Assembly: GCF_016865255.1 (NCBI RefSeq)
Contig: NZ_CP033381.1
Coordinates: forward strand, 2,294,001-2,358,000
DNA length: 64,000 bases
Direction: 5' to 3'
Source of the DNA: Methylomonas sp. LW13
GTDB taxonomy: Bacteria; Pseudomonadota; Gammaproteobacteria; Methylococcales; Methylomonadaceae
Shown: positions 16,436-64,000 of the stretch, piece after piece
How positions within the stretch are numbered: position 1 is the stretch's first letter
Layout: every line of letters begins with the position of its first letter
Position numbers and translations under genes: made by a program
The notes under the pieces: generated by a model
The model's database searches: none
What the model was told of the DNA's origin: nothing
The model's input: the letters and a program-made list of their open reading frames with translations, nothing else

Positions 16436-17398
16436 TTAGTTTTTCAATATCGTCAGGTAAGTGGAAATATTCACGATTTTGGCGCCGGTTATGTTCGCCA
16501 AGGTTCGCAGTAGGCTGTCGGTATCTTCCAGTTTGTAATTGCCGGTGATCCGGGTGTTTGCCAACTTGGCGTCGGCGATGGCGATGGTGCCGGGATGGTA
16601 GCGATCCAGTTCCGTTATCACGTCTGCCAAGGTTCGATCTTGAAAGATCAAGCGGCCTTTTAGCCAAGCAAAGGTTTTACCGGTATCTATGTTGCTGATT
16701 TCCGCAACGCTGTGGGTATCGATCTCGGTATGTTGGCCGGCGCTTAATTGCCGGTTTTGCCCTTGTTCGGCGCTACAAATCACTAAGCCGCTTTCGACAT
16801 TCACTTGGGTAGTATCGCCGGTTTTGACGCTGAAGCGGGTGCCCACCACGCGCACTGTTCCCTGTTCTGTCGTCACAATAAACGGCCGGCTTTTGTCGGC
16901 TTGCACCTCAAAATAGGCTTCGCCGCTTAATAAGATTACGCCGCGCTGTTGACCGGCGTAATCCAGTTTTACCGCACTATCGGTATTTAGAACCAGCGCG
17001 GAACCGTCTGCCAGTATTACTCGGCGCTGTTCGCCGGTGGCGGTGGTAATGTCTGCTTGCCAGCGTTGCAAGCAGTCGGTTGAAGCCAGGAACCAGCCAA
17101 CAATCAAGGTAATGCTGGCGGCTGCAGCCCAGCGCCGAACGGTCGATTTACGCTGCGCGGGCGGCCGAAGTGGGATGCTGGCGTATTGGCTTAGGGCGGC
17201 GTTCAATGCTGGCGATTGCCAGAGTTGCACCACTTTGTCGTAAGCGGTTTGATGCGTGGGGTCGGCGGCTAACCAGCAGGCAAACTCGGCTTGATCGGCC
17301 GCACCGGTTTTATGGTCTTGTAAGCGGGCAAACCAGGCAAGTGCTTGATCTTGGACATTACCCGGCGATGGAACTTCCTGATCAAAACGTAAAGGCAT
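16436..17398 (-). CDS. FecR-family anti-sigma / signal transducer (second locus)
   Basis: The protein is 320 aa from the ATG at 17398; a TTG at 17419 would add seven residues. It has an N-terminal DUF4880 region (QALAWFARLQDHKTGAADQAEFACWLAADPTHQTAYDKV), one membrane helix (AAAASITLIVGWFLA), a FecR domain (LADGSALVLNTDSAVKLDY, SRPFIVTTEQGTVRVVGTRFSV) and an STN-like end (DVITELDRYHPGTIAIADAKLANTRITGNY). It lies between the sigma gene and the receptor, as in the first locus, and should couple receptor occupancy to the sigma factor. Confidence 0.92.
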   Translation of the reverse strand: MPLRFDQEVPSPGNVQDQALAWFARLQDHKTGAADQAEFACWLAADPTHQTAYDKVVQLWQSPALNAALSQYASIPLRPPAQRKSTVRRWAAAASITLIVGWFLASTDCLQRWQADITTATGEQRRVILADGSALVLNTDSAVKLDYAGQQRGVILLSGEAYFEVQADKSRPFIVTTEQGTVRVVGTRFSVKTGDTTQVNVESGLVICSAEQGQNRQLSAGQHTEIDTHSVAEISNIDTGKTFAWLKGRLIFQDRTLADVITELDRYHPGTIAIADAKLANTRITGNYKLEDTDSLLRTLANITGAKIVNISTYLTILKN

Positions 17399-17482
17399 GG
17401 CGGTTGACGGGTTAGGCAATGGGGCGAATTTTATCAGTATTGGTGCTGTGTTCAGGAAAATCAGTATGGCCTAAGGTTACGG

Positions 17483-18010
17483 CTAGTCTTGCCGGCTGGC
17501 TAATAAATGAGTCAGAGCTGCCTGTACATTCTTCTCTACCGCGCTACGCGATATGTCGTAATAGGCGGCGATCCGCTCGTAATTCCAATGGTGAAATTTG
17601 TGCAACACCAGAATTTGCCTGCGCCGTTCGGATAATTGCTCAAGCGCTGCCAGCATCAATGCCAGTTCTTGTTGATCGGATGCTTGCTGCTCGGGCGTCG
17701 GGGTATCGTCCGGCAAATTGTCCAGCAGCGATATATCTTCGTCCGTATCGGCCGTTTTTGAGTCGTCGGCGCGTTGGCGAATACGTTCTTTACGCAGATG
17801 ATCCAGTGCCAGGTTTTTTGCGATTTGGTATAGAAACGGCCGCGGGTAACTGATGTCTTGGATTTCCAGGGCGTGCAGCATTTTTATGTAAGCTTCATGC
17901 GCCAAGTCTTCCGCGGTTTGCGGGCAGCCGACGATGCCGAAAATAGTGTGAATCAACGAATCGCGATGGCTCAAAAATAAATCGTCGATGTTGAAGGTGA
18001 GGCTGTTCAT
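17483..18010 (-). CDS. ECF sigma factor, FecI type (second locus)
   Basis: The protein is 175 aa from the ATG at 18010 (MNSLTFNIDDLFL). The frame extends upstream to 18175, but that extension lacks sigma homology. Region 2 reads CPQTAEDLAHEAYIKMLHAL and RPFLYQIAKNLALDHLRKERIRQ. Region 4 reads LEQLSERRRQILVLHKFHHWNYERIAAYYDISRSAVEKNVQAAL. It is more divergent from the first FecI-like sigma than the receptors are from each other, so promoter specificities may differ. It heads the second sigma - fecR - receptor unit. Confidence 0.92.
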   Translation of the reverse strand: MNSLTFNIDDLFLSHRDSLIHTIFGIVGCPQTAEDLAHEAYIKMLHALEIQDISYPRPFLYQIAKNLALDHLRKERIRQRADDSKTADTDEDISLLDNLPDDTPTPEQQASDQQELALMLAALEQLSERRRQILVLHKFHHWNYERIAAYYDISRSAVEKNVQAALTHLLASRQD

Positions 18011-18151
18011 GGCGAAGACGAGTTTGGCGTGCTTGGAACCCGATAGAGCCGATTTACAGCAATATTTGAACCAATAAACAAGTGTGTTGATTTTGAAAGA
18101 CAAAATCACATGGCACCCGGCGGCAGGGTATGGCATATGCCGTTTTAATGG

Positions 18152-19399
18152 GTGAAATGCCTGATTTATTTGCAATCAGAGTGGACGGGAGATGTGTGCT
18201 GGAAGTGCCCACAACTACACACTTTTTCTGCGAAAACTGCTAGTCTTATCACCTCGATTAAGCGGGTGGGGCCGAGCTTGGAACAGGATATAACAACAGA
18301 TCTGCGGGTGTTGGAAAGTCATTTGGACGGTATGCTCAACCGCGTCCAGCATAACAGTCTGACCTTAAAGCGATTGCAAAGCTTTGAAATGCGTTTACTG
18401 GGGCTTAGTTCGCTGGCGGAAATGATCGAGTTCATTCTCGGCGAAGCCAAGGCCTTGTTCGATTTGGACGTAATCAGTTTGTGTTTGATCGACCCGAAAA
18501 ACGAAATCGCCGGTTACCTGGAAGTGGATAATTATAATTATCGGGACCGGGAAGGGCTGTTTTTAGCAAGTAGCGAATGGCAATTGCGGCATAGTTTTGG
18601 TCTGTCCGACCAGCCGTTTCTGGGGAGCTATCAAACCACGATTTGCGAGAAGTTTTTCTCCGAATCCAATCAACAAAAACCGGCGTCGGTAGTCATTGCG
18701 CCGCTGATTCGCCGGGATCGGTATTTGGGCTCGTTGAATCTGGGCAGTTATCACAACGAGCGTTTCATGCAAGGTATGGCGACCGATTTTGTCGAGCACA
18801 TCGCCTCGGTCATCAGTATTTGCCTGGAAAACAATCTTAATGTCGAAACCATGCGGCGCACCAGTTTGGTCGATCCCTTGACCGGCGTGAACAATCGGCG
18901 GTTTTTGGAGCAGCGTATAGAGGAAGAGCTGGATCGCAGCCAACGCAATCGCGAACCTTTGTCCTGCCTATTTCTGGATATTGATTTTTTCAAGCGCATC
19001 AACGACGGTTTTGGACACCAGGCCGGGGATCATGTACTGGCTGTGGTGGCCGGTATCATCAAGAAATTGCTGCGCAATAACGATGTGCTGGCGCGTTACG
19101 GCGGGGAAGAGTTTGTGGCCTTGCTGTCGCAATCCGATGAAAGTACGGCCTCGGAAATTGCCGAGCGGATTCGTTTGAGTATTGCTAATTTGCAGGTGGA
19201 GTATGGCGACCAAGCCATCCCGGTGACTATTTCGATTGGTGTGGCGACTTACCAGCCTAACCGGGCGCAGAAAAAGCTTGTCGCCGAGATTGCGTTGCAA
19301 TTGGTGCAAACCGCCGATGCTGCCTTGTACGAAGCCAAACGTAAAGGCAGAAACCGTATTGAGAATGGCGGGCTGGTGTTAGTAACCGAGCCTGCTTAG
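18152..19399 (+). CDS. Diguanylate cyclase with DUF484/GAF-like sensor
   Basis: The 415-aa frame starts at a weak GTG (18152); a start nearer 18276 is possible. Residues ~60-220 resemble DUF484 ([37 protein letters not shown]), a GAF-like cytoplasmic sensor. Residues ~235-400 form a GGDEF domain with [18 protein letters not shown] and the active signature RYGGEEF. An RNND inhibitory I-site lies five residues upstream, so the enzyme should make c-di-GMP and be product-inhibited. No membrane segment is seen. Its stop overlaps the convergent galE stop by four bases. Confidence 0.9.
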
Positions 19400-51955: not shown

Positions 51956-52183
51956 TCAGGCTTTGGTGCGGTCAGCTTTGCCTATCAAATCACCGGATAA
52001 TTCTTCCTGATAGAGTTGGGTAATCGCCTTGGCCTCTTCAGCTTCTTCACTTTCCTTTACCGCTGTACGAAATCCCTTGATCGCATCGCCCAAGTCGGCG
52101 CCGACATTCTTCAAGCGCTTGGTGCCGAACACCAAGACCACAATCGCTAAAACTACTAATAGGTGGGGAATGCTCAAGCCCAT
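51956..52183 (-). CDS. tatA: Sec-independent translocase subunit TatA/TatE
   Basis: The protein is 75 aa from the ATG at 52183 ([39 protein letters not shown]), the canonical TM helix, hinge and amphipathic helix of TatA. An in-frame ATG four codons upstream is possible. No tatB or tatC is adjacent, so it is a stand-alone TatA/E copy. The gap 51658-51955 upstream of the RND gene shows no gene. Confidence 0.92.
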
Positions 52184-52420
52184 GTTTTGCTCCAAAGTTG
52201 AAAGTTGCGGATATTAGATTAAGTCGCTTAATGAGTTTGACTTAGCCTTCTCACGGCGGTCTTCAGCAAGATAAGGGCCAATCTGCCGAGTGAGCACTGG
52301 AATAAGCCTAAGTGCCGCTGTGTTCCTGGCATATCAACAACACTGGTTTTAGTTACCGAGTATGGAGGCAGGCGGGTCAACGGCAACTATCCCAAAAAAT
52401 GCTGATCTACCAGCATTGAA

Positions 52421-52433
52421 TCAGCAAATGCTG
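52421..52433. promoter_or_regulatory. Candidate activator site TCAGCA-AA-TGCTG
   Basis: CAGCA-AA-TGCTG lies inside a larger ACCAGCA...TGCTGGT repeat in the gap before the enhancer-binding protein gene. It is related to TCAGC-AAG-GCTGA (56530) and TCAGC-AAAG-GCTGA (60044). A looser version, CAGCA-N8-TGCTG, lies at 52599-52616. The remaining part of 52196-53002 holds the small RNA described separately and no protein gene. Confidence 0.4.
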
Positions 52434-52676
52434 CTGGTATACGAACAGGCTGCAACATAGTGGGCATGTTTAAGCAGCGATTTTGGCTGACCGGGCTTGT
52501 TGAAAAAGCCCAAGTTCATTGGATTAGCGCGAAAAAACGCAATGTCCGGCCAGTAAAATGCAGGCCTATGAAAATATGTTGAAATATCAACACTAAATCA
52601 GCAGATTATGTTGCTGTGGCAACATTTGGGTTTCGCAAAAACCTGTAATCCTTTATGATGTGCTGAAAACACGAAG

Positions 52677-52692
52677 TGGCATGAACCATGCT
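52677..52692 (+). promoter_or_regulatory. Sigma-54 -24/-12 promoter of a small RNA
   Basis: TGGCATG-AACC-ATGCT matches the TGGCAYR-N4-TTGCW consensus except A for the first T of TTGC. The invariant GG and GC are present at the exact 12-base offset. Predicted transcription starts at about 52704 and meets a terminator at 52769-52806 with no protein gene between. Confidence 0.6.
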
Positions 52693-52703
52693 TAGAGCCT
52701 GGT

Positions 52704-52806
52704 ATCTCGCTGTTATTATCCGAGCATTTTGTCTCCATAACATCCACTTCTGCTGACCGGACCGCCGGAAGCCAGTTTGTCCCCAAAGGACTGCTGGCTT
52801 TTTTTT
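52704..52806 (+). ncRNA. Predicted sigma-54-dependent small RNA (about 100 nt)
   Basis: The interval runs from the predicted sigma-54 start point to the end of a strong intrinsic terminator. It has no convincing reading frame. The 5' half is unstructured and pyrimidine-rich (contains GTCTCCATAACATCC), the kind of segment that often pairs with ribosome-binding sites. The 3' hairpin plus eight T's is a typical Hfq-type sRNA end. It lies about 200 bases upstream of the enhancer-binding protein gene on the same strand, so a terminated leader is the alternative. Confidence 0.5.
52769..52806 (+). terminator. Strong intrinsic terminator with no gene upstream
   Basis: AAGCCAG (52769-52775) pairs with CTGGCTT (52794-52800), with an inner GTCC/GGAC pairing, followed by eight T's (52799-52806). 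No protein gene ends nearby on this strand, which points to a noncoding transcript. Confidence 0.85.
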
Positions 52807-53002
52807 GGCCTGTGCTCAGCGAAAGCGCCGGTTTGTGGACTGACTTTGGACACGGTAAGGCTGATTTTTGTTTGGTGTTTGCGTTTCGGCAGTTAACTTG
52901 TGATGCCGCGACGAATCACTATTTTTGACATCTTAGGAAAAGATCTTTCATGGATATATTTTTGAGTAACGGCATCGTTGCTCACAGTACAGGGGAAACC
53001 GT

Positions 53003-54079
53003 ATGACATTATTGGCATTTGACGAATTGCAATTACGACAGCTGTCGCACACAGTGCGGGCCACGGCGATGGTGTTCGAGGATCCGGTTTCACGAAAACT
53101 GTTGGAGCACATCGAGCGGATCGCGCCCAGCGATGCGACAGTGCTGATCATCGGCGAGACCGGCACCGGCAAGGAATTGGTCGCCAGGCATGTTCATGCA
53201 CTTAGTAAGCGCGCCAAAGGACCTTTCGGTGCTTTAAATTGCGCGGCACTCAGTGAAAACCTCATCGAAAGCGAATTGTTCGGCCACGAAAAAGGCGCTT
53301 TCACCGGCGCCTTGAATACAAAAGAAGGTTGGTTCGAAACCGCCAATAAAGGCAGTTTGTTTCTGGACGAAGTCGGCGATTTACCGCTGGGCTTGCAAGC
53401 GAAATTATTGCGGGTATTGCAGGAAAGGGAAGTGGTCAAGGTGGGTTCGCGCACGCCGTCGCCGGTGGATGTCCGAGTCATCGCCGCTACCAATGTTAAT
53501 TTGGAAGAAGCGGTGGCGGCGTCGCATTTTCGCGCCGACCTGTATTACCGTTTTAACGTGGCGGCGATTCACTTGGCGCCGTTGCGGGAACGGCCGGGCG
53601 ATATTTTGCCTTTGGCCAGGCACTTTCTGAAAGTCTATGGCGACCGCTTGGGCTATGGTGAAATCAAATTATCGCCTTCCACCGAGCTGGCCTTGTTAAA
53701 TTACGATTGGCCCGGCAATATTCGCGAGTTGGAAAATGCGGTGCATAGGGCCTTGTTGGTCTGCCCAGGCAATCGTTTGCGTCCGGAGGACTTTAAGTTG
53801 TCGGGGGTACGAGTCTCACAGAGCGGGCCCATGGTTTCAACCTCCTCGCTGGAAAGTTCGCTACTGCGCTTGTGCGAACAAGCCCCGCCTAAGTTGTTCG
53901 ACATTATCGAAGAGACCGTGATTCGCACGGCGTTCGAGTTTTGCGAAGAAAACCAGGTGCAAACCGCGCGCTTGCTGGATATTAGCCGTAATGTCTTGCG
54001 GCATAAGCTGGGGTTGTACGGCATGTTGGCTAATGGCCAGCGGAAATTGGCCGTCGCTTATCAAGAAGGCGAAGAGTAA
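53003..54079 (+). CDS. Sigma-54 enhancer-binding activator lacking a sensor domain (SfnR/PspF-like layout)
   Basis: The 358-aa protein starts at the ATG at 53003 with AGGGGA upstream. The AAA+ domain starts by about residue 25: Walker A GETGTGKE (51-58), the sigma-54-contacting loop GAFTGA (98-103), Walker B SLFLDEVGD (~118-126) and ATN sensor I. A Fis-type HTH (QTARLLDISRNVLRHKLGLYG) ends the protein. There is no REC, GAF or PAS domain, so activity must be set by expression level or a partner protein. The layout recalls SfnR and PspF. Several -24/-12 promoters within 8 kb make it the likely local regulator. Confidence 0.93.
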   Translation: MTLLAFDELQLRQLSHTVRATAMVFEDPVSRKLLEHIERIAPSDATVLIIGETGTGKELVARHVHALSKRAKGPFGALNCAALSENLIESELFGHEKGAFTGALNTKEGWFETANKGSLFLDEVGDLPLGLQAKLLRVLQEREVVKVGSRTPSPVDVRVIAATNVNLEEAVAASHFRADLYYRFNVAAIHLAPLRERPGDILPLARHFLKVYGDRLGYGEIKLSPSTELALLNYDWPGNIRELENAVHRALLVCPGNRLRPEDFKLSGVRVSQSGPMVSTSSLESSLLRLCEQAPPKLFDIIEETVIRTAFEFCEENQVQTARLLDISRNVLRHKLGLYGMLANGQRKLAVAYQEGEE

Positions 54080-54095
54080 TCTTCGCCAAGTTCCT

Positions 54096-54127
54096 TCCGG
54101 CACCTTAGCTGTAGCGGGGTGCCGGCA
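54096..54127. terminator. Hairpin between convergent activator and cupin genes
   Basis: CCGGCACC pairs with GGGTGCCGG in the 58-base gap between two stops facing each other. There is no clear T run, so it is at best a weak bidirectional terminator. Confidence 0.4.
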
Positions 54128-54137
54128 TCGCAATACC

Positions 54138-54605
54138 TTACTTTGCAGGTGCCGGGGTCGATGTAGCCGGACCGATGCCGACAATCTGTAAAACCGTGTC
54201 TTCGTCCTTCGCGCCGTCGTAATGGATTTCGTTACCGTAATGGGTGACGAAGCTGCCCGCCGGTACCGGTTGCAAATGCTCGGGGTCGTAATCGCTGCCG
54301 GTGCCAACCCACCAAGTGCCTGAAATCACAGTGATGAAGCGGTCGTTTGGGTGCGAATGCGGCTTGCTGTTGTGATGAGCCTTCCATTTATTCAGCACCA
54401 CATACAGGCCGGGTTTGTTCGGATCGCCGACCAGTACCGCGCTTTCCGACCCGCTGGGATTTGCGACCCAATTAATTTGGTCCGGCAGCTTGATGGAAAT
54501 GGCTTTGGGGTCAAGTTCCACGGCTGCCGCAGAGTTATAAGCTAAAGATAACGCGATTGCCAAAGCTGGTAGTGATAACTGCCGTCGAATACGTGCCTGT
54601 AACAT
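54138..54605 (-). CDS. Exported cupin-domain protein
   Basis: The protein is 155 aa from the ATG at 54605, with GGAGA five bases upstream. The signal peptide reads LSLPALAIALSLAYNSAAAVE. The mature part is a small cupin with metal-binding pattern HSHPNDRFITVISGTWWVGTG and a second His cluster SFVTHYGNEIHYDG, plus GDPNKPGLYVVLNKWKAH before the first motif. Exported cupins of this form are of unknown activity. A possible sigma-54 promoter lies upstream, and its leader would begin with a long hairpin. The gene follows the arylsulfotransferase-type gene on the same strand. Confidence 0.85.
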   Translation of the reverse strand: MLQARIRRQLSLPALAIALSLAYNSAAAVELDPKAISIKLPDQINWVANPSGSESAVLVGDPNKPGLYVVLNKWKAHHNSKPHSHPNDRFITVISGTWWVGTGSDYDPEHLQPVPAGSFVTHYGNEIHYDGAKDEDTVLQIVGIGPATSTPAPAK

Positions 54606-54633
54606 TTTAATCTCCAAATTTAGGGTGTTAGTG

Positions 54634-54736
54634 CCATGGGCTTGGGGGTATCCGGTTGTGGAGTGCCAGTTCCTTTTAGCTTAATGGCAGTAACCCGTCT
54701 ACCAAACATCACGACCGGATACCCCGAAACCCATGG
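54634..54736 (-). repeat. 23-base inverted repeat in the cupin leader
   Basis: The left arm CCATGGG-CTTG-GGGGTATCCGGT (54634-54656) pairs with the complement of 54714-54736 except for a 4-base internal bulge. The loop is 57 bases. If the minus-strand sigma-54-like promoter at 54746-54761 is used, transcription would start at the outer base of this structure, giving a stem-loop at the mRNA 5' end. Confidence 0.75.
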
Positions 54737-54745
54737 TTTTAAAAT

Positions 54746-54761
54746 TGCATACCGCGTGCCT
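54746..54761 (-). promoter_or_regulatory. Possible sigma-54 promoter of the cupin gene
   Basis: On the minus strand AGGCACG-CGGT-ATGCA has the invariant GG and GC with the correct offset, but two mismatches to TGGCACG-N4-TTGCA. It is weaker than the other sites. The predicted start is near 54735. Confidence 0.4.
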
Positions 54762-54780
54762 GGGTTTTTACCAAGTTGTT

Positions 54781-56220
54781 TTAGGGCTTGTTACTGGCTA
54801 CCGGTAGCCGAAACTTACTCAAATCAGGCGCACTGACCGGATTCTCACTATGCGGTGTGCCGGCCGGTACCCAGTCATAAGGTACCGGTTGGCCGCGATA
54901 TAACGAGTTGTTGGCGGTGGCCCGGCCGGTCAAAGCATCCTTACCGGTACGAAAATACGGATTGATATATTCCCAGACTATGTCGCCGTCGGTTGTTACT
55001 TGAAATAAGCGTCCACTCTGGCCCTCGTCTATAAAAGTATTCCCGTTAGGCAAGCGGCGGGCAGCGCTGATATGGGTGCTACGAAACGACCAACTAGGGC
55101 CTCCGGAACTCTCCCCTGTGTATTGCCAGACAATTTCTTTCTTGATCGGATCGATTTCCAGCACCCGCGAACCGCCGGTGCGCGGCACCGGAGCCGGCGG
55201 ATACCCGGCGATGCCTTGATTGTCGAATACCAGTAAATTACCGGCGCCGGGCAAGCCTTCCGGGATGATGTGCGCATCGTGCTGAGCACTGATTTGATCG
55301 ACCGGGCGCGGTACCTTGCGGGCCAGTTGTTCTTCAATGGACGCGGCTGGGTAGTGCGGTCCCAGGTTCCAGACCACTTTGCCGGTCTTGCGGTCGATGA
55401 TGATTATGAAATTAGCGTTGCGCGCGTCGATCAATAGATTATCGGGATGAAAACGCTGGTCGCCGGCCGCATACCAGGGGTTCGGGCCGACTACTTTTAG
55501 ATTGTTGACATGCAGGTAATCGGCAATCTCGGCATTGCGGACCAATTTAAGTTCGGCCGGCGTAAAGCCAAATTCCTGCAAATGCTCCGAGGCAACCCAT
55601 TTCCAAACCACTTCGCCCGCCGGATTGACTTCGTAAATCACGTCGTCCAACACTTGCGGCTGCTTAAAGCCTTTCACCGGATGCACGAGGTTAGCCAATA
55701 CCACGGTATTGCCGTTGGGTAATCTGGCCCAGTCATGATGTTGTTGCGCGGCACCGCCAGGCGCTTTGTCGCCGAAGCTCCAGACGGTTTTGCCGTCCCC
55801 GTCCAGTTCGGCGATGGTTTTGGTGATCTTCTTGCTGATTTGGCCAGGCACTAGATCCGTACCTTTACCCTCAGTGGTTTCCTGCGTGATAAATACATGT
55901 CCAAGCTTGCCGCCGTTCACGGCTGGATTAATCAACGTGCTGTGGCTGGCGGCATCCGGCCATTCGTGAACGGAATTGCCGTTTAAATCGATCAGATGGG
56001 CGATGTTGTCGCCGCCGCTGAACAATACAAACGAGTTATACGCTTTGCCCGGGTCGTAGCGTGTGGTGCCGGTAGGCAACACGCTTGGTCCTGATAAGGC
56101 CGAGACGCTAAGCGCGGTACCCAGCACAATTAACGCCGCTTGCTGCCAGGTTTGGGATTTACGCAATGGCCGGTTTGGTTTGCGGCCGCGTGCGGTTACG
56201 GATGGTCTTATTTGGGTCAT
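54781..56220 (-). CDS. Arylsulfotransferase-family (ASST) exported beta-propeller protein
   Basis: The 479-aa protein has a basic N-terminus and a hydrophobic export segment (AALIVLGTALSVSALS). The propeller blades carry ASST-family motifs: AELDGDGKTVWSFGD, AQQHHDWARLPNGNTVVLAN, YEVNPAGEVVWKW, HVNNLKV, IIIIDRKTGKVVWNLGP, ISAQHDAHIIP, GNLLVFDNQG and VLEIDPIKKEIVWQY. True ASSTs transfer sulfuryl groups between phenols using an active-site His; which His serves here is not certain. A sigma-54-type promoter lies 57-72 bases upstream, and the gene diverges from a TonB receptor that also has one. Confidence 0.85.
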   Translation of the reverse strand: MTQIRPSVTARGRKPNRPLRKSQTWQQAALIVLGTALSVSALSGPSVLPTGTTRYDPGKAYNSFVLFSGGDNIAHLIDLNGNSVHEWPDAASHSTLINPAVNGGKLGHVFITQETTEGKGTDLVPGQISKKITKTIAELDGDGKTVWSFGDKAPGGAAQQHHDWARLPNGNTVVLANLVHPVKGFKQPQVLDDVIYEVNPAGEVVWKWVASEHLQEFGFTPAELKLVRNAEIADYLHVNNLKVVGPNPWYAAGDQRFHPDNLLIDARNANFIIIIDRKTGKVVWNLGPHYPAASIEEQLARKVPRPVDQISAQHDAHIIPEGLPGAGNLLVFDNQGIAGYPPAPVPRTGGSRVLEIDPIKKEIVWQYTGESSGGPSWSFRSTHISAARRLPNGNTFIDEGQSGRLFQVTTDGDIVWEYINPYFRTGKDALTGRATANNSLYRGQPVPYDWVPAGTPHSENPVSAPDLSKFRLPVASNKP

Positions 56221-56276
56221 TGCTTATTCCTTTATGAATGGGCGGATGGCTGTGCTGGTGCTCAAGGATGGCTGTA

Positions 56277-56292
56277 AGCAATGATCAAGCCA
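56277..56292 (-). promoter_or_regulatory. Sigma-54 promoter of the arylsulfotransferase-type gene
   Basis: The minus strand reads TGGCTTG-ATCA-TTGCT, close to the TGGCACR-N4-TTGCW consensus, with intact GG and GC. The expected start is near 56266, giving a leader of about 45 bases. Confidence 0.75.
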
Positions 56293-56529
56293 ACAATTTT
56301 TATTTAATCCATTTGCCTGCCGAAAACCTCCACCTAATAAACTCAAACCCGATAAAGGCCTCGTGAATCAAGGCCTTGCCATCAATGCACCGTTGCTGCC
56401 GGGAAATGTTTTCAAGCAAGCCCTGCTGCAAATTGATCCGGAATCTATCGGTTTCTGGCTGAGCTTGTTGAATGGCGGGCAGGCTGCCAGCAATTTGTAT
56501 TTCTAATTCAACAGATGCCGATCAGGTGC

Positions 56530-56542
56530 TCAGCAAGGCTGA
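56530..56542. promoter_or_regulatory. Candidate enhancer site TCAGC-AAG-GCTGA
   Basis: A perfect 5+5 palindrome lies in the 628-base divergent region, about 240 bases from the ASST promoter and 200 from the receptor promoter. CAGCAGCTGCTG, a second palindrome, lies at 56575-56586. An almost identical TCAGC-AAAG-GCTGA lies upstream of the second receptor. The region also holds a GTG frame of 47 codons (56363-56506) that I do not consider a gene. Confidence 0.5.
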
Positions 56543-56742
56543 TTCAGGCTAACAACAAAGGCTATTCATACTGTCAGCAGCTGCTGTTTGAGTTTCAGCA
56601 GTTTTACGTAAAAACGCTGAGTGATTTTTTGTTTGTTCTCGCTGATTAATAACTTGTAGAAAATTTAAAAAATAAATAAAAACATGTAGTTGTGAATTAT
56701 TTTCCGAATGTAATTCGCCTGTTAGCGCTATTTGCTTACTGC

Positions 56743-56758
56743 TGGCATGCCTATTGCC
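56743..56758 (+). promoter_or_regulatory. Sigma-54 promoter of the first receptor
   Basis: TGGCATG-CCTA-TTGCC matches the -24/-12 consensus apart from the last base. Transcription should start near 56769, leaving an 80-base leader before the GTG at 56849. This placement argues against any translation start upstream of the promoter. Confidence 0.85.
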
Positions 56759-56848
56759 AAATTGATATTAGAGCCGGTTTTATTTTGTTGCCGGCAGAGT
56801 TTTGATGTTGGTTCATATCGATTTTTTAACATTTGTTTAGGTGGAATA

Positions 56849-59800
56849 GTGAGCGATAAATTAGCAAGTGCTTTTTCAGTAAGCGCTACTCGACAGGATG
56901 GAGTTCCTCAAGCAATCAGTGCGCGCCGTAGGTTATCGACTTGCGTGGCAATGGCTATCGCCGGGGTGTCCCTGGTATCGGCATTTGACGTGGAAGCCGC
57001 ACCGAAAAAAAACAGCAAAAGCAAAAGTGTAAATAGCAAAGCGGTTAGCGATTTGGAAGCGGAAAATCAGGCTTTGCGTCAGCAGCTTGCCGCCGCCAAA
57101 CAACGTGAATTGGAATTTATCAAGCAAGGTGCAATAGGTGCTGCGCCAGCCGGAGCCGCGGTAACCTCTACAGAAACCACTGCCGCGCAGAATGAAGCGC
57201 CGGCTGAGGCTTTAGCCAAGAACGACGAAGACCAAAATGAGGATTTGGGTGAAGTGGTTGTGAAGGCCAAACCCAAATTGGCGAAATTACACGAAGTCGC
57301 GCAATCGGTATCGGTGGTATCCGGCACCGAACTTAATCGGGAACTGTCCAGGGACTTGGGCGACATCACCCGCCGCGCGTCCAACGTGCAATTCAATCAA
57401 AACAACACGCGCGGCGCCTCGCTATCGGTGCGCGGTTTGGGGAAAAGAAGTTTTACGGAAACCCAGGATCCCAGCGTCGGCGTGACGGTGGACGGTGTAC
57501 CGTATGCCTTGACGCAGTTGGCTAACTTCAGTTTTTACGACGTGGAAGCGGTGGAAGTCACGCGCGGGCCGCGCGGTACCGAGGGCGGCTTGGCCGCAAG
57601 CTCGGGTAAAGTGAACGTCACCTCCAAATTGCCGACATTCGCGCCGACAGCGGAATTGTCCGCCGCTTATGGGCAACGGGAGTCCTTGATATTGCAAGGT
57701 GCTTTGGGCGGGACGGTGATCGATAATTTTCTGGCCTGGCGTGGATCATTCATCGTCGATAAGGCGCGGGGTTTTTATGAAAACGAATACGACAGAAACT
57801 ACACACTATATAACCGCGATCGCCTGAGCGGGCGCGCGCAGTTGCTGTTTACCCCAACCTCAAACTTAACGGCACGCTTTATCGCCGACTTCGAGCCGAA
57901 GCAACCACAGGTACAAAACGGTTTGACCTTCTATCATGATCAGCCTTTTCGGTTTGCCGACGGTAGTCTCACGGATAGAAACGGCACATCCGCCTACTCC
58001 AAACTCAATGGCTATTTCAGTCATAGCAACCAATTTGCGCTGACCGATACCACCAGTCCGGGGGCGATCAGCGCCGTCGGTTCAAGAGCGGCGGCCGGCC
58101 AGTACTTTGCCAACAGAGGGTTTACCTATAACGATTATATCGGCGGCGAACAACGCGGCACCGTCTGGTTCGATCAAAACAAAGGCCAAACCGTCAATAA
58201 CCAGGGCGCAGCGGCGTTAATCGACTGGGAAGTCGGCAATCATGTGTTGAGCTCCAGAACCGGGGTGCGCGAATATCGCTTTGATGCGCACAACGACGAA
58301 GGTACGCCGTTTGACATCAGCGTCGATGGCGGCGGCGGGGTTAAATACAATCAATGGACGCAGGAATTTAAAATCGTCAACAAACCGGGCGGCTTTTTGG
58401 ATTACAAGGCCGGCGTGATCGGTTTGTGGACCAAGGATAATGTGGACTCGAAAGCCGGCTGGGGCGCCGACGCCGGGGCCTGGTTTGCCACCAACGGCCA
58501 GTACAATGCTTTATATAGAAACGCCGGCACCAATCGCGGCGCCGGCGAGGCTATCCTGAAAGACCTGTTGCAGGATGCGCGCACCTTCGAGTCTACCGAG
58601 ATTCGTACCCAATCCGGTGCCATATACGGCGAATCGGATTTGCACTTTACCGACAATTTCACCCTTACCGCCGGGGTACGCGCCACGCATGAAGACCGTA
58701 CGTCGCGCAACTTTAAGAACATTGCCAGAAATGGCGTTGGTGGCGCCTTTAATCCAGTGGCGGTGCGTGATGTGGCCACCGGCGGTTTTAATTCCGATAC
58801 GGCGCAGTCGTTTACCGTCGATCAGGATGGCGACGGGGTGATCGACAAAAATCCCGATGGGTCCAATAAAACAGTGACCAACACCTTCTACGGATCGACA
58901 AGCAATTACGGAAAACTCAACGCTGCGCAAACCGGCGTGGTAGCCGGCGATACTGTGGTGAACAGCGCCGAGCAAACCGCGCTGGCCGACTCCTTGGCGG
59001 CTCGATACTTTGGCGGCTCCAGCTATTCGGCGTTGACCGCCGCGCAAAAAACCATGGTCGCCAATGCCAAAACCTTGCGTGCCTCGCAAATCGGCCGTTT
59101 GAATCAAACCGTCGAGGATAACTACCGGGATGTACTGTATACCGCGCAATTGACGCCCAGCTACAAAATCAATGAAGACCTGACGACGTATTTGTCCTGG
59201 CAATACGGCGAGAAATCGGGATCGATTGCGCCGGTCAACGGTCTGCCGTTCACCGTCAAACCGGAAGAAACTCATGCCCTAGAGCTCGGTTTTAAATCCT
59301 TTTGGCTGGATAAGTCGGTGGTGCTTAATGTCGATGCGTTTGTCATGGATATTAAGAACTACCAGCAAGCGGTTCAGGTGGTGGACCAATTCCAAACCGA
59401 AGTCAACCTGGCGCCCGGTGGTTCCGGCCTGACAGCCTACGCCACGACGCAAGGCAACGTCGGTCGGGTGCGGGTGCACGGCGTGGAGTTGGACAGCGTG
59501 ATCAACACCATTCCCGATTTGTCGATCCGTTTCAACGGCGCCTATAACGTTGCCGAATATCTGGATTACAAAAATGCACCTAAACCCGATGAGCTGGGTT
59601 ATCTGACCGGGGATTACGTCGATATGACCGGCCAGTATCTACCCGGTGCTTCCAAATGGAACTTTAACGTCGGTGCCGAATATTCCAAGCCGATTTTCGA
59701 GAGCAAATACATAGCGCACACCAGCTTTAATACCAACTACCAAACCGAGTTCAATAATAGCGATACCTTATCGGCCTACGGTTGGGTAGGGGATAGAGCC

Positions 59801-59965
59801 AGAACGGACGCGGCGATCGGTATCGGTACCCGCGACAAGCACTGGGACTTGAGCCTGATCGGTAAAAACATCTTCAACGATAGAAATCACGAAATTGGCT
59901 GGAATTCCTATGCGCCGGATCCTTATCCGCGTTGGTTCGGTATTCAGCTAAGCGGGAAAATTTAA
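56849..59965 (+). CDS. TonB-dependent receptor with coiled-coil extension and Asp-rich loop
   Basis: The protein is 1038 aa from the GTG at 56849, preceded by AGGTGG; starts upstream lie before the promoter. A long signal region (CVAMAIAGVSLVSAFDVEA) is followed by a Lys-rich stretch and a coiled coil (DLEAENQALRQQLAAAKQRELE). A Glu/Ala linker leads to a TonB-box-like DLGEVVVKAK, the plug (SLSVRGLGKRSFTETQDPSVGVTVDGV, VEVTRGPRG) and the barrel. Residues ~658-670 form DQDGDGVIDKNPD, an EF-hand/TSP3-like metal loop. The barrel ends FGIQLSGKI, unusually without a terminal aromatic. It is paralogous to the next receptor. Confidence 0.9.
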   Translation: MSDKLASAFSVSATRQDGVPQAISARRRLSTCVAMAIAGVSLVSAFDVEAAPKKNSKSKSVNSKAVSDLEAENQALRQQLAAAKQRELEFIKQGAIGAAPAGAAVTSTETTAAQNEAPAEALAKNDEDQNEDLGEVVVKAKPKLAKLHEVAQSVSVVSGTELNRELSRDLGDITRRASNVQFNQNNTRGASLSVRGLGKRSFTETQDPSVGVTVDGVPYALTQLANFSFYDVEAVEVTRGPRGTEGGLAASSGKVNVTSKLPTFAPTAELSAAYGQRESLILQGALGGTVIDNFLAWRGSFIVDKARGFYENEYDRNYTLYNRDRLSGRAQLLFTPTSNLTARFIADFEPKQPQVQNGLTFYHDQPFRFADGSLTDRNGTSAYSKLNGYFSHSNQFALTDTTSPGAISAVGSRAAAGQYFANRGFTYNDYIGGEQRGTVWFDQNKGQTVNNQGAAALIDWEVGNHVLSSRTGVREYRFDAHNDEGTPFDISVDGGGGVKYNQWTQEFKIVNKPGGFLDYKAGVIGLWTKDNVDSKAGWGADAGAWFATNGQYNALYRNAGTNRGAGEAILKDLLQDARTFESTEIRTQSGAIYGESDLHFTDNFTLTAGVRATHEDRTSRNFKNIARNGVGGAFNPVAVRDVATGGFNSDTAQSFTVDQDGDGVIDKNPDGSNKTVTNTFYGSTSNYGKLNAAQTGVVAGDTVVNSAEQTALADSLAARYFGGSSYSALTAAQKTMVANAKTLRASQIGRLNQTVEDNYRDVLYTAQLTPSYKINEDLTTYLSWQYGEKSGSIAPVNGLPFTVKPEETHALELGFKSFWLDKSVVLNVDAFVMDIKNYQQAVQVVDQFQTEVNLAPGGSGLTAYATTQGNVGRVRVHGVELDSVINTIPDLSIRFNGAYNVAEYLDYKNAPKPDELGYLTGDYVDMTGQYLPGASKWNFNVGAEYSKPIFESKYIAHTSFNTNYQTEFNNSDTLSAYGWVGDRARTDAAIGIGTRDKHWDLSLIGKNIFNDRNHEIGWNSYAPDPYPRWFGIQLSGKI

Positions 59966-60043
59966 GATGGTAGGTTGACCAAAAAACACGCTTGACACCA
60001 GTTCGTAACCTGGAAATGAAACTGTTGATTGGCGGGCAGTTAG

Positions 60044-60057
60044 TCAGCAAAGGCTGA
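60044..60057. promoter_or_regulatory. Candidate enhancer site TCAGC-AAAG-GCTGA
   Basis: A perfect 5+5 palindrome lies about 140 bases upstream of the second receptor's -24 element, at a typical enhancer distance. It differs from the site at 56530-56542 by one extra A in the spacer. Confidence 0.5.
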
Positions 60058-60194
60058 TGACCTTTCAACAGTTTTTCAGCTGGCGGCGTTCTCATGATGT
60101 TAGCAAGATAGATAAATTGGGTCTTAAAGTTAGTTATTAAATTCAATTGTTTAAATCTCATTAATGGATGGCTAGGCGGATGTTTATCATCCTG

Positions 60195-60210
60195 TGGCAT
60201 GGTCGTTGCG
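60195..60210 (+). promoter_or_regulatory. Sigma-54 promoter of the second receptor
   Basis: TGGCATG-GTCG-TTGCG has the complete TGGCAYR and TTGC elements with correct spacing. The start would be near 60221, about 75 bases before the GTG at 60296. The rest of 59966-60295 shows no gene. Confidence 0.85.
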
Positions 60211-60295
60211 TAGAGCGTTACAGAAAGTTCGAATGGCGGACGCCGTCTTGGCGTTGGCTCGAATTGGTTTTTGTAACATTCGCATAGGTGAGATC

Positions 60296-63052
60296 GTGAA
60301 GGAAAATTTAATTGGGAGTCTGTCGGCAGACAGCATTGAATCGGTGAAAGTGCCGCTGCACATTAGCAATCGGCGCGGTTTGTCGGTATGTGTGGCAATG
60401 GCTATAGCGGGTGGTTCAATGCTGATTGCTAGCGATGCGACCGCCCAAACGGCGCCGGTGAAAAAAAGCGCGAAAAAGGCCGGCAATAAAGCGGTTGCCG
60501 ATACCAAAGTGAACGATTTACAAGCGCAGGTTGAACGCTTGAGCCGGGAATTGGAAGCCTCAAAACGGCGTGAGCAGGATTTACTTAAAAGAAGTGTGGC
60601 GGCCGCGCCGGCGCCAGGTATTACCGATCCGGCTGCGCAAACCAGTCAGGAGCCGGACAATGTCGTAGCCGCCGCTGAGCCGGAGCCGGAAGAGAAAGCC
60701 GACGAGCCGCAAAACCTGTCGGAAGTGGTCGTAACGTCTCGGCGTAAGGAAGAGAAGTTGCAGGAAGTGCCGATTCCGGTGGCGGTAATCAATCGGGAAA
60801 CGCTGGAGCGGGATAACGTGGTGTCGGTACAAGATTTTTCCCGGCGTGCGCCTAACTTGGGTGTGACCTCGGCCAATGCCCGGCAAACCAGTATTGCTTT
60901 GCGGGGTTTGGGCAAAAACAGCGGTAACGAATCCATGGAGCCCAGTGTTGGCGTGATGGTGGATAACGTCTGGCGGGCGTGGGCGGGGGCGGCGTGGGCC
61001 AACTTTGCCGATTTGGATCAAGTGGAAGTGTTGCGCGGTCCGCAAGGTACGCTGCAAGGTAAAAACAGCAACCTGGGTTTGCTGAACATTACCACTAAAG
61101 CGCCTTCATTCAAGAACAGTTATTACGTGGATGGCTTTGCCGGGGATAGGGATACCCTGCAAGGCAAATTCGGCGCTACCGGTACCATCTTGCCGGGTTT
61201 GTTGGCGTATCGCGCTTCCGGGTTTATCGATAAGCGCGACGGCTTTGTGAAAAATTTGGATGTGCATCGCAGTGAGGGGGATTTAGGTGAAACCAATGCG
61301 TTGGGCGGGCGTTTGCAGTTTCTGTTTACGCCGAGCGAAGATTTGAGCGCGCGGTTGATTGTCGATAAAACTGCCTCGACTCAAACCATGAGCGTGCAAC
61401 CCCTCATCGCCGATCCTACGCGCTTTGACGATGGCACTCTGCGAACCACTACCTTCAGCAGCCGGTTAGCCAGGGATTGGTTCAATACCCTGCGAACCAA
61501 TGGTCAACCGGTGACCGTGATTGGTGATCCTAGAGCGATGGCGAACAACGAAAGGCGCCAATCGCGCGGTGATGGTTCGGGTGTGTCGGCGGAAATAAAC
61601 TGGGATGTGGCGGGACATCGGTTGACCTCGATTTCCGCTTATCGGGATGCGTTGTTTGAACCTAATCATGATGGCGAGTCAAGTACCGCAGACGTTGAAC
61701 GGATTTCCGGTTGGACGGTTAAAAATGAGCAATGGTCGCAGGAGCTCAGATTGGCGTCTAAAGACCCTGGACCCATCGATTACCAGTTCGGGGTGTTTGC
61801 GATGCGTGCTATCGCCAATACCTTTAATCAACGCCTTTTTGGGGTGGATGCCGGCGCGTTCCATGCCAGCAATAGCCAGTACGCGCTGTTGAATGCCAGC
61901 CCAGCGTCCCGGCAATTATTGGCGGCGTCCATGCGCGATACCATGTTGACGCAAAACGTGGTGCCTGCCACCGATAGCTATGCCGGCTACGGTCAGATCA
62001 ACTGGCATGTCACCGATGATGCGACCTTGACCTTAGGCTTGCGCAATACCTTTGAACGTCGGGAAAACACCGGTTATAGCCGGAATTTGGGCGGTGTGGA
62101 TTTAGATGCTTTGGGTGCCTCCGTGGGTGCCAATGCCGCGCAGATTGCTGCGGCCAAGGCTATTCGCAGTAACCGTCTGGGTCCGGAATGGGATGCTCCG
62201 CGGCAAGGTTTCGATCAGAATTCGCAAAACTGGTTGATTAACCCCAGTTACAAAGTGAATAAAGATTTGATGGTCTACGGTTCGGTGGCCGGCGGTCAAA
62301 AATCCGGGGCTGCGCAGTTCAACTTTAACACTGGGGCTACGGAAAACGTCAAACCGGAAGATGTGATGGACTACGAATTTGGTTTCAAGAGCACTTTGCT
62401 GGATCGCAAGCTGGTATTCAACGTCAACTTGTATCAAACCGACATTCAAAGTTATCAATCGCAGTTGGTGGCGCCCGATCCATTACGGGCCGGTCAATTC
62501 TTGACGCAACTGGGCAATATAGGCGGTATTCAATTACGCGGTATCGAGTTGGAAACCAATTGGGATATTACCCAAGGGTTGAATGTGTTCCTGAACGGTT
62601 CGTATAACAAAGCCATTTACACCGACTTTGCCAACGCGCCGTGCCCACCGGAAGCGAATAACAGCGGATATTGCGATCAAACCGGCAAAACCATCCCGAA
62701 CGCACCGGCGTTTACTGCCAACTACGGGATAGATTACCGGGCGCCTTTAACCTTTGGTTACGGTAACGACTACGGTTTGCAGTGGCATGCGTATTTGATC
62801 GACAGCTTTAAATCCGCAGCCAACTACAACGCCAGTTTGTCGCGCTATGGCAAGCAGGACGCCTATCACGTCACCGATGGCGGGATTGGATTGGGTACTA
62901 AAAATGGCAAGTACAACCTGGACTTGGTCGGTAGAAACATCTTTGACACCATCTACTTTACCAATGCCAGTAACTTTTCCGGTACCGGCGCGGCGAGTGC
63001 TTCATTCGGCGATGCGCGTTACTACGGTGTGCACTTTAGAGCCAAATTCTAA
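60296..63052 (+). CDS. TonB-dependent receptor with coiled-coil extension (second copy)
   Basis: The protein is 918 aa from the GTG at 60296 (AGGTGA upstream). The frame begins at 60194, but that lies within the promoter. Layout matches the first receptor: signal region CVAMAIAGGSMLIASDATAQ, Lys-rich stretch, coiled coil (VNDLQAQVERLSRELEASKRREQDLL), Pro/Glu linker, LSEVVVTSRRKEEKLQEVPIPV TonB-box region. The plug reads TSIALRGLGKNSGNESMEPSVGVMVDNV and VEVLRGPQGTLQGKNSNLGLLNITTK. The barrel ends YYGVHFRAKF with terminal Phe. It lacks the Asp-rich loop. It is probably co-transcribed with the SMP-30-like gene 74 bases downstream. Confidence 0.92.
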   Translation: MKENLIGSLSADSIESVKVPLHISNRRGLSVCVAMAIAGGSMLIASDATAQTAPVKKSAKKAGNKAVADTKVNDLQAQVERLSRELEASKRREQDLLKRSVAAAPAPGITDPAAQTSQEPDNVVAAAEPEPEEKADEPQNLSEVVVTSRRKEEKLQEVPIPVAVINRETLERDNVVSVQDFSRRAPNLGVTSANARQTSIALRGLGKNSGNESMEPSVGVMVDNVWRAWAGAAWANFADLDQVEVLRGPQGTLQGKNSNLGLLNITTKAPSFKNSYYVDGFAGDRDTLQGKFGATGTILPGLLAYRASGFIDKRDGFVKNLDVHRSEGDLGETNALGGRLQFLFTPSEDLSARLIVDKTASTQTMSVQPLIADPTRFDDGTLRTTTFSSRLARDWFNTLRTNGQPVTVIGDPRAMANNERRQSRGDGSGVSAEINWDVAGHRLTSISAYRDALFEPNHDGESSTADVERISGWTVKNEQWSQELRLASKDPGPIDYQFGVFAMRAIANTFNQRLFGVDAGAFHASNSQYALLNASPASRQLLAASMRDTMLTQNVVPATDSYAGYGQINWHVTDDATLTLGLRNTFERRENTGYSRNLGGVDLDALGASVGANAAQIAAAKAIRSNRLGPEWDAPRQGFDQNSQNWLINPSYKVNKDLMVYGSVAGGQKSGAAQFNFNTGATENVKPEDVMDYEFGFKSTLLDRKLVFNVNLYQTDIQSYQSQLVAPDPLRAGQFLTQLGNIGGIQLRGIELETNWDITQGLNVFLNGSYNKAIYTDFANAPCPPEANNSGYCDQTGKTIPNAPAFTANYGIDYRAPLTFGYGNDYGLQWHAYLIDSFKSAANYNASLSRYGKQDAYHVTDGGIGLGTKNGKYNLDLVGRNIFDTIYFTNASNFSGTGAASASFGDARYYGVHFRAKF

Positions 63053-63063
63053 TTTGTATACTC

Positions 63064-63089
63064 GCCGGGCGGCCAGAATGCCGTCCGGC
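63064..63089 (+). other. Intercistronic hairpin
   Basis: GCCGGGCGGC (63064-63073) pairs with GCCGTCCGGC (63080-63089) with one G-U pair. There is no T run. It lies between the receptor and the SMP-30-like gene and may stabilise the upstream message or lower downstream expression. Confidence 0.5.
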
Positions 63090-63126
63090 AAACCGATTTA
63101 TCGAAACATTTGCAAAGGAAATACTT

Positions 63127-64000
63127 ATGTTATCTAAACACTTATATTTACTTGGTTTTGGCGCGTTGATTTACGGGGCGGCCGCTCATGCCGACGACCC
63201 GGTTACGCCGGCTATTCCCGGCGTCTCCGCCGGTGGCGTGGTAGCCGAGCTAATCAAGGATGGTTTTAACGGTACGGAAGGGCCGATAGCTTACAGCGAT
63301 GGCAGTTTATTGTTCACGGAAACCCAAGCCAACAAAATTATACGCATCGGCTTGGACGGTAAAGTATCGACATTTCTGGAAAGCTCCAATGGCGCTAACG
63401 GTTTGGCTTTGACGCCGGATGGCGACATCGTCGCGGTACAAACCGTAAAAACCAAAGTTGGCGTAGTTTATCCGGCCAACAAGAAAAATACCTTGGCCGA
63501 AAATTATCAAGGCACCGCATTTCAACGTCCCAACGATTTAGTGCGCGCCAGCAATGGCGGTATCTACTTTACCGATAGCGGCACCCGGCCTAGCAAGGAA
63601 AATCCCAATCCGCCACCGTCGCATCCCGGCGTGTTTTACATTTCGCCTGGCGGAGATCTTAAACAGCTGGCAACGGACATCGAGCGTCCCAACGGTATTC
63701 AATTGAGCAAAGACGAAAAGGTGTTGTACGTCGCCAATACCCAAGGCGAACATATTCTGGCTTACGACATTGCCGCGGACGGTTCGATCCAGAATCGCCG
63801 CAATTTTGCCAAACTGGACGGTTGGAAAAAAGGCGAGGACGGTACGTGGTCCAGCGGCGCCGATGGGCTTGCATTGGATAACGACGGCAGATTGTATGTC
63901 GCTTCCAATTCCGGCGTGGAAATCATCGGTGCCAAAGGTGAGTTATTGGGTGTGATTCCATTACCCAAAAAGCCGCAAAATCTGGCCTTTGCGGGTATCG
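63127..64000 (+). CDS. SMP-30/gluconolactonase-like exported protein (3' end beyond window)
   Basis: The ATG at 63127 has AAAGGAAA nine bases upstream. The frame is open to the window end (291 codons and counting). A signal peptide (LYLLGFGALIYGAAAHADD) is followed by beta-propeller sequence typical of SMP-30/gluconolactonase/LRE proteins: FNGTEGPIAYSDGSLLFTE, GANGLALTPDG, RPNDLVRASNGGIYFTDSG, IERPNGIQLSKDEKVLYVANT and GADGLALDNDGRLYVAS. The family includes metal-dependent lactonases and strictosidine-synthase-like enzymes. It belongs to the sigma-54 island and probably acts in the periplasm on the imported compound. Confidence 0.88.
   Translation, partial: MLSKHLYLLGFGALIYGAAAHADDPVTPAIPGVSAGGVVAELIKDGFNGTEGPIAYSDGSLLFTETQANKIIRIGLDGKVSTFLESSNGANGLALTPDGDIVAVQTVKTKVGVVYPANKKNTLAENYQGTAFQRPNDLVRASNGGIYFTDSGTRPSKENPNPPPSHPGVFYISPGGDLKQLATDIERPNGIQLSKDEKVLYVANTQGEHILAYDIAADGSIQNRRNFAKLDGWKKGEDGTWSSGADGLALDNDGRLYVASNSGVEIIGAKGELLGVIPLPKKPQNLAFAGI

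Follow-up and report, generated by a model that had tools for sequence, protein, structure and literature searches.

SfnR is a sensor-less AAA+ activator. In Pseudomonas, SfnR, SfnR1, and SfnR2 are sigma-54 activators of genes for the use of dimethyl sulfone and related sulfur sources. This type of control is said to have been described by Endoh in 2003 and 2005 and by Lundgren in 2019. Sulfur genes can also be governed by riboswitches and attenuators, such as S-box/SAM, SAH, and T-box. In Synechococcus, the encapsulin SrpI and its desulfurase increase during sulfur starvation (PMC8049743). Here, a gene island at the end of a 64-kb stretch (the window) of the Methylomonas sp. LW13 genome is described. 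The genome is a single contig of 5.23 Mb. Places past the window end are given in continued window coordinates, in which the numbering runs on past 64000. With a probability of about three in four, the island would be a regulon for sulfur starvation, serving to scavenge organosulfur compounds under the control of a sensor-less, SfnR-like sigma-54 activator (enhancer-binding protein, EBP), with a leader RNA attenuator as the likely sulfur input.

The EBP resembles SfnR in being a sensor-less AAA+ protein in a sulfur setting. The comparison was made through a related clade (clade C), which shares a TGYTG-N6-CARCA pair (31-32 bp) with the loci studied here and in which one locus encodes SfnG together with an MsuE-like reductase. 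Unlike SfnR, the EBP belongs to a separate clade A without sfn genes, its putative targets are TonB receptors and periplasmic proteins, and it has a terminator-bearing leader RNA. No genes for dimethyl sulfone or methanesulfonate use (sfnG, msu) were seen at the locus and, therefore, the activator is named SfnR-like rather than SfnR. A further trait of SfnR-type activators is expression under CysB; a CysB-type gene is present in the island. Like the S-box/SAM, SAH, and T-box elements, the leader has an intrinsic terminator before sulfur genes. It differs from them in its core of about 55 nt, in having strong copies only in this family and one order-mate, and in having no match in Rfam 15 at E<=1 (window positions 52000-64000 and loci L003, L154, L148, L160, and L171). 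The island also contains a system like family-2A SrpI, alike in shell, cargo desulfurase, and CysE/CysK neighbors (PMC8049743), but this one adjoins a sigma-54 regulon and belongs to a cysK-led gene group that stands behind the new leader RNA. The arylsulfotransferase-family (ASST) protein shows 21% identity to AssT (PDB 3elq) and Cpz4 (9kf4) and differs in its sigma-54 and sulfur-island setting. Searches of the open-access literature found nothing published on the RNA, on sigma-54 control of ASST or TonB receptors within a sulfur regulon, or on encapsulins of methanotrophs in such a setting, which is weak evidence. The enhancer, the leader RNA, and the sulfur genes past the window go beyond an earlier interpretation of the same DNA (the sequence-only reading).

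The Activator and Its Probable Enhancer

The sequence-only reading had described an activator without a sensory domain, and this proved correct. The EBP has 358 amino acids, its AAA+ sigma-54 interaction domain begins at residue 24, and a domain scan found no sensory or other N-terminal domain. The sigma-54 contact loop reads GAFTGA. GSFTGA replaces it in 7 of 18 clade-A activators (L097, L090, L092, L014, L094, L106, and L103). The genome carries one RpoN (492.8 bits, cut-off 277). Three clades of activators were distinguished, A (the clade of the EBP, 76-100% identity), B (61-66%), and C (56-58%). In the tree, A and C are firmly supported and B less so (87/92). Locus L111, the one of the three clade-C loci that the family scan covered, encodes SfnG (TIGR04021, 635 bits, cut-off 383). 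It also encodes an MsuE-like reductase (198.9 bits, slightly under the cut-off of 212.5) and an O-acetylhomoserine sulfhydrylase.

Upstream of the activator gene, two conserved palindromes in an alignment of five Methylomonas loci gave the pattern TGYTG-N6-CARCA. A pair of these palindromes spaced 32 bp apart is likely the enhancer of the activator, as predicted from 140 sigma-54 sites of at least 12.5 bits in 84 loci. Counts over related loci here and below are non-independent, and several Methylomonas loci are near-identical copies. An exact palindrome was found 40-300 bp upstream of 28 of the 140 sites, five of which (in L002, L015, L053, L085, and L095) stem from places used to derive the pattern. 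The same distance downstream gave one, and rotated palindrome positions gave a mean of 2.2 and a maximum of 7. When mismatches were tolerated, pairs spaced 32 bp apart were present at 34 of the 140 sites, and every other spacing from 12 to 69 bp, except 31 and 35, gave 0-4. A rerun with slightly different windows found 32-bp pairs at 36 sites and at none on the downstream side; 27 of 29 permuted half-sites gave 0 and two near-equivalent ones gave 17 and 21.

In the Methylomonas sp. LW13 genome, the pair is perfect at 52577/52609 and imperfect at TonB receptor 2 and the rhodanese-like gene. The promoters of clade-C loci L111-L113 carry the same pair at 31-32 bp, common to them and the loci related to the EBP. 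The genome contains 69 exact palindromes, whereas the reversed pattern occurs 19 times. Twenty genome regions with isolated exact palindromes, selected from listed places of the 69, held no clear new sulfur operon. The two with a sigma-54-like site are L119 and L129. At L119/L135 (454718-454831 of this genome), the gene of a 159-amino acid exported protein is preceded by a -24/-12-like site, with an exact palindrome 83 bp ahead of that site. A first enhancer candidate, CAGC...GCTG, was enriched near the promoters of this genome (2.35 against 0.48 per kb) and unconserved, and it was replaced.

Predicted Sigma-54 Promoters and Their Genes

Sites were scored with an approximate -24/-12 position weight matrix. 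The window contains five sites of at least 14 bits, whereas 20 order-1 Markov shuffles average 1.9. Four of these sites (52677+, 60195+, 56743+, and 54746-) cluster in this 8-kb stretch. Exact matches to TGGCAYRNNNNTTGC number 22 genome-wide, three of them within 7.8 kb here (one just beyond the window end); the reversed control has five matches. A further sigma-54 site lies past the window at 64530, ahead of a rhodanese-like gene. Homologous sites are present in some related loci for TonB receptors 1 and 2, DUF1549, and SMP-30, and for the cupin in Methylobacillus. The promoter scan took this locus and 33 others chosen from a set of 62 ASST loci (L004-L065). Predicted features are collected in Table 1.

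Table 1. Predicted features of the island within the window
Feature	Position	Strand	Details
Additional enhancer palindrome	52400..52415		TGCTG-N6-CAGCA
Enhancer palindrome 1 of leader/EBP promoter	52577..52592		TGTTG-N6-CAACA; kept in 5-locus alignment; 0 mismatches; partner 32 bp away
Enhancer palindrome 2 of leader/EBP promoter	52609..52624		Kept in 5-locus alignment; pair perfect
-24/-12 promoter of leader RNA and (via read-through) EBP gene	52677..52692	+	14.9 bits
Leader RNA element	52739..52811	+	Nearly invariant GCTGACCGG-ANNR-CCGGAAGCC hairpin and intrinsic terminator; no Rfam match
Sensor-less sigma-54 activator, SfnR-like group A	53003..54079	+	PF00158 domain beginning at residue 24 (233.7 bits), AAA lid, GAFTGA loop, weak HTH_8; clade A in the tree
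Exported cupin	54138..54605	-	PF12973 26.9 bits, cut-off 27
ASST-family periplasmic propeller with AssT-like histidines	54781..56220	-	
-24/-12 promoter of ASST	56277..56292	-	12.6 bits; counterpart (at least 11 bits, upstream) in 21/34 scanned loci; enhancer matches here weak
Lone imperfect enhancer site between ASST and TonB receptor 1	56585..56600		1 mismatch; no 32-bp partner found
-24/-12 promoter of TonB receptor 1	56743..56758	+	14.4 bits; 16.3 in L053, 18.9 in L015
TonB-dependent receptor 1	56849..59965	+	PF00593, PF07715; GTG start (56849) probable
Enhancer pair of TonB receptor 2	60023..60070		Spacing 32 bp; 2 and 1 mismatches
-24/-12 promoter of TonB receptor 2	60195..60210	+	14.8 bits; present too in L015, L053, L006
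TonB-dependent receptor 2	60296..63052	+	PF00593, PF07715; GTG start (60296) probable
SMP-30/gluconolactonase-like exported protein	63127..64000, continuing to 64086 beyond window	+	PF08450 118.4 bits

The sequence-only reading had listed five promoters, and -24/-12-like sites do occur at those places. It had ranked the 52677 site among the weaker ones, which was not borne out; this site has the best enhancer pair and an intrinsic terminator downstream. The 54746 site did not stand as a promoter of the cupin. It is probably a chance match because it faces the minus strand, lacks an enhancer, and is unmatched at 11 bits or more in both L015 and L053. Direct sigma-54 control is well supported by the sites for TonB receptor 2 and the rhodanese-DUF1549 operon and moderately supported for TonB receptor 1 and ASST, where the -24/-12 sites are conserved and the enhancer matches here are weak. 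A separate sigma-54 promoter for the cupin is not supported. Judging from gene order, the cupin is probably co-transcribed with ASST; among the 12 other loci with both genes, 10 have it after ASST and in the same orientation, and L020 and L028 have it on the opposite strand. The SMP-30 gene is likely co-transcribed with TonB receptor 2. In L049 and L051, it has a sigma-54 site and an enhancer pair of its own.

Sulfur Genes in the Island and in Related Genomes

The island extends well past the window end, and the part within the window makes up the left half of an island of sulfur genes. Past the window are, in order, the sigma-54 site, genes for a rhodanese-like protein, DUF1549/1553, DUF1501, a cytochrome c'-like protein, two peroxiredoxin-like proteins, a cytochrome c, and a PepSY-like protein. 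Then, on the opposite strand, there are a cysteine desulfurase, an encapsulin, a serine acetyltransferase (SAT), a cysteine synthase, a CysB-type regulator, and sulfate-type ABC genes (CysTWA). The PepSY, serine acetyltransferase, cysteine synthase, and ABC genes were named by eye. The encapsulin shell is SrpI-like (PF19307, 355.5 bits). The desulfurase passes NCBIfam f2_encap_cargo1 (NF041166; 893.9, cut-off 800) and has an N-terminal extension, with its aminotransferase domain beginning at residue 165, and these are the features of a family-2A encapsulin. One of the two peroxiredoxin-like proteins was scanned and is AhpC/TSA. Sfn/Msu proteins and the peroxiredoxin LsfA increase in sulfur-starved Pseudomonas aeruginosa (PMC12581299). 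The LsfA response is a parallel to the peroxiredoxins of this island.

The rhodanese-like exported protein has 168 amino acids (64620-65126; L002:12620-13126) and a PF00581 score of 21.9 bits (cut-off 22.2). By eye, its active-site loop reads SNHAGRA and has no cysteine. Homologues are present in L015, L017, L049, L051, L053, L096-L098, L104, and L114, mostly heading a DUF1549/DUF1501 operon or behind a sigma-54 site. A TatA-like protein (51956-52183, minus strand) adjoins the island, and the DUF1501 leader is twin-arginine-like (by eye).

Other genomes were examined for the same link to sulfur. In a family sample of 121 genomes, ASST was called at E<=1e-100 and a close activator at E<=1e-110. 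ASST is present in 14 genomes and a close EBP in 38, and all 14 are within the 38. The hypergeometric chance of this is about 1e-8, calculated by hand with kinship ignored. Ten of the 14 have a clade-A activator and four (G017, G024, G029, and G053) have clade B or C only. Wider neighborhoods were explored for 12 other clade-A loci (L095-L106). Four of them (L096, L098, L102, and L106) adjoin CysK-SAT-encapsulin-desulfurase or CysTWA-CysB genes, and two (L097 and L105) adjoin the DUF1549 operon. L095 and L103 have no such neighbor, and L099, L101, and L104 have ABC-type, porin, or binding-protein genes (L104 has a rhodanese homologue farther off). A role in sulfur supply and a comparison with SfnR had been suggested from the sequence alone; the gene neighborhood, the related clade with its SfnG locus, and the common enhancer code support both. 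The sulfated aromatic or sulfone of that suggestion is a possible substrate.

The Leader RNA

A strong intrinsic terminator lies between the 52677 promoter and the EBP gene, 200 nt ahead of the start codon. In the alignment of EBP upstream regions, conservation spans from the promoter to the terminator end and drops strongly just past it. A search of the genus with the leader region gave matches in 25 of 37 genomes, some of them short and many at a second place. In this genome, the second copy is in the cysteine-synthase leader (78308-78374). Twenty-nine copies align to GCTGACCGG-ANNR-CCGGAAGCC and a terminator hairpin, with compensatory changes in 7 of 15 pairs. This alignment came from 37 pattern finds and omitted L019 (chance), L177 (no full terminator), and six near copies.

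An RNA model built on the 29 copies matches 43 of the 121 family genomes and 18 of 29 genera. Family matches under 40 bits, including a third match in this genome, were taken as plain terminators and are the sole kind in four of the 43. In 30 family loci including this one, the downstream gene is CysK in 20, SAT in five, encapsulin in two, EBP in two, and unclear in one. In a class sample of 274 genomes, the model matches six including this one, strongly only here and in G285; the other four score less than 36 bits. G285, of the same order and another family, has one copy before CysK-SAT and one before an outer-membrane-like protein (by eye). A wider alignment has 57 copies, 54 of them distinct. 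The terminator covaries, and 7 of the 15 pairs show compensatory changes here too. Its both-side compensatory cells number 52, against 13.5 when shuffled, and 97.3% of its cells are paired, against 14-48% when slid by 1-3 columns; these statistics lean towards structure because the wider alignment was fitted to it. GCTGA and both CCGG strands scarcely vary.

From these contexts, it can be inferred that the leader RNA is an attenuator that supplies the sulfur input of the sensor-less activator. More specifically, and more tentatively, with chances somewhat short of even, it would be a new sulfur-sensing riboswitch or attenuator that governs cysteine synthase, the sulfur encapsulin, and the activator. 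The signal would be cysteine, O-acetylserine, sulfide, or a protein. The sensor of the activator would have moved from protein to mRNA, in a positive loop that the activator itself drives. By eye, an alternative GCU/AGC hairpin can be drawn, in which the nearly invariant GCUGA/AGC flanks could lengthen hairpin 1 in competition with the terminator.

Qrr, CrcZ, and NrsZ are trans-acting sigma-54-dependent small RNAs. The element at 52739-52811 may be another of this kind, of about 105 nt, and not a cis attenuator. The strong promoter, the terminator 200 nt before the EBP start, and the conserved spacing between them would suit such an RNA; of 12 EBP-leader copies examined, 11 have a sigma-54 site at a distance of 60-61 nt upstream of the anchor (L155 is without one). 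However, the same element occurs in the leaders of cysK, serine acetyltransferase, and encapsulin genes, close upstream of them and behind TTGACA-type promoters (by eye; such boxes precede most of the cysK and encapsulin copies). A small RNA is thus an unlikely reading, but one with some claim. The EBP copy could have cis and trans roles at once.

The ASST-Family Protein and Its Neighbors

The ASST protein has the fold of its family (PF05935, 80.7 bits, cut-off 24.2). Its closest named relatives are in Methylomonas methanica R-45363 (96%) and M. fluvii (94%). H252 and H436, the active-site histidines of AssT, align to H162 (nearly invariant) and H314 (invariant) of this protein; the H436 match lies four residues beyond the printed alignment. 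The fold and two such histidines fit sulfate-ester chemistry. The ASST genes of L021 (Methylobacter sp. BlB1, G029) and G027 have an in-frame stop.

A sulfatase-family cluster, the representative of which matches PF00884, has 24 members in 22 of the 62 ASST loci, and C-x-[PA]-x-R is present in 23 of the 24. The gene lies within 350 bp after ASST in 15 loci, about 2.5 kb downstream in five, and elsewhere in two, so that 20 of the 62 loci have it within 2.6 kb downstream. It is also possible to view the ASST system as one that sulfonates phenolics for detoxification, apart from sulfur supply. Known AssT enzymes move sulfate between phenols, and the titles of PDB entries name phenolic ligands. 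The regulatory and genomic tie to sulfur assimilation and the sulfatase-family genes close downstream make this improbable.

Between ASST and the cupin (54628-54740), there is a long inverted repeat with CCATGGG...TATCCGG arms, noted by eye. Rfam matches to mir-196, at this repeat, and to PtaRNA1 are far under the gathering scores and were rejected as chance.

The Proposed Regulon

The proposal builds on gene content, sites, the enhancer code, and the conservation and context of the RNA, all read from sequence; from these, binding, induction by sulfur limitation, attenuation, the ligand, and the substrate are inferred. Sulfur limitation would cause read-through of the leader terminators at cysK-cysE, the encapsulin gene, and the activator gene, the leader attenuator most likely reporting cysteine or sulfur status. 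The activator would then bind palindrome pairs with the 32-bp spacing, which lie some 50-190 bp ahead of -24/-12 promoters. It would fire the promoters that bear enhancers, including that of its own leader. Its targets would be the TonB receptors, the ASST-family propeller, the cupin, SMP-30, the rhodanese without cysteine, DUF1549/1553, DUF1501, the cytochromes, and the peroxiredoxins. The receptors and periplasmic proteins may capture and desulfurize a compound that is probably a sulfate ester or something like it. The freed sulfur could enter cysteine synthesis by way of the adjacent CysTWA, CysK/CysE, and encapsulin-desulfurase genes.

Several observations weigh against this proposal. The candidate C-terminal Fis-type helix-turn-helix of the EBP scores 20.1 bits for HTH_8, under the cut-off of 22. 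Palindrome pairs spaced 31 bp (8 sites) and 35 bp (10 sites) exceed the background as well. In this genome, the ASST promoter has weak enhancer matches only, the cupin site has none, and TonB receptor 1 has one imperfect palindrome. Among the 20 isolated exact palindromes, just two had a sigma-54-like site nearby and, therefore, single palindromes mean little. The EBP and the ASST cluster of G061 are separated by at least 2 Mb. No clear sulfur genes were found in six of the 12 wider clade-A loci (L095, L099-L101, L103, and L104; L100 is unannotated), and no sulfatase was seen in the cluster of this genome. The RNA has an unremarkable folding energy (z -1.53; 15 of 200 shuffles were equally good). 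Hairpin 1 of the RNA hardly varies and, therefore, gives no covariation support.

Alternatively, the RNA could be an ordinary strong intrinsic terminator without regulatory meaning. Half of the element is a perfect terminator, and the matches under 40 bits resemble plain terminators. However, GCTGACCGG...CCGG ahead of the terminator stem is near-invariant in the 54 distinct copies, is dispensable for termination, and recurs at sulfur genes across many genera. A plain terminator is thus quite improbable. Very improbable is an island for metal or siderophore uptake (iron, copper, or lanthanide), in which the TonB receptors import a metal chelate, as such receptors mostly do, and the rest is accessory; both receptors score best with the TonB-siderophor subfamily model, though far under its cut-off, but sulfur assimilation genes adjoin the island, ASST co-occurs with SfnR-like EBPs, sulfatase-family genes lie near ASST in 20 of 62 loci, and the enhancer is shared with the SfnG locus. 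The sulfur-starvation regulon thus appears to be the best account of the island.

Other Features

TonB, ExbB (in L102), and SMP-30 genes are present near clade A and B activators at L102:3807-9234 and L108:11159-14867. The TonB and ExbB genes of L102 are behind a sigma-54 site with a palindrome, and a dedicated energizer is possible. Elsewhere in the window, two sigma-factor/anti-sigma-like gene pairs (5737-7318 and 16436-18175) adjoin siderophore-type TonB receptors (3052-5574 and 13804-16248). An apparent transposase in two overlapping frames (11578-12683) is beside a low-GC stretch. Both were noted by eye.

Significance

Sensor-less sigma-54 activators raise the question of how a signal enters. 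A leader RNA common to cysteine and encapsulin genes is a testable answer. The 32-bp palindrome pair is a means of mapping the regulon in gamma- and betaproteobacteria. Through this enhancer, sulfur supply is linked with TonB receptors, ASST-family proteins, DUF1549/1553, and DUF1501. If the proposal is true, methanotrophs spend on sulfur scavenging, which would have a bearing on methane oxidation in low-sulfate soils and lakes.

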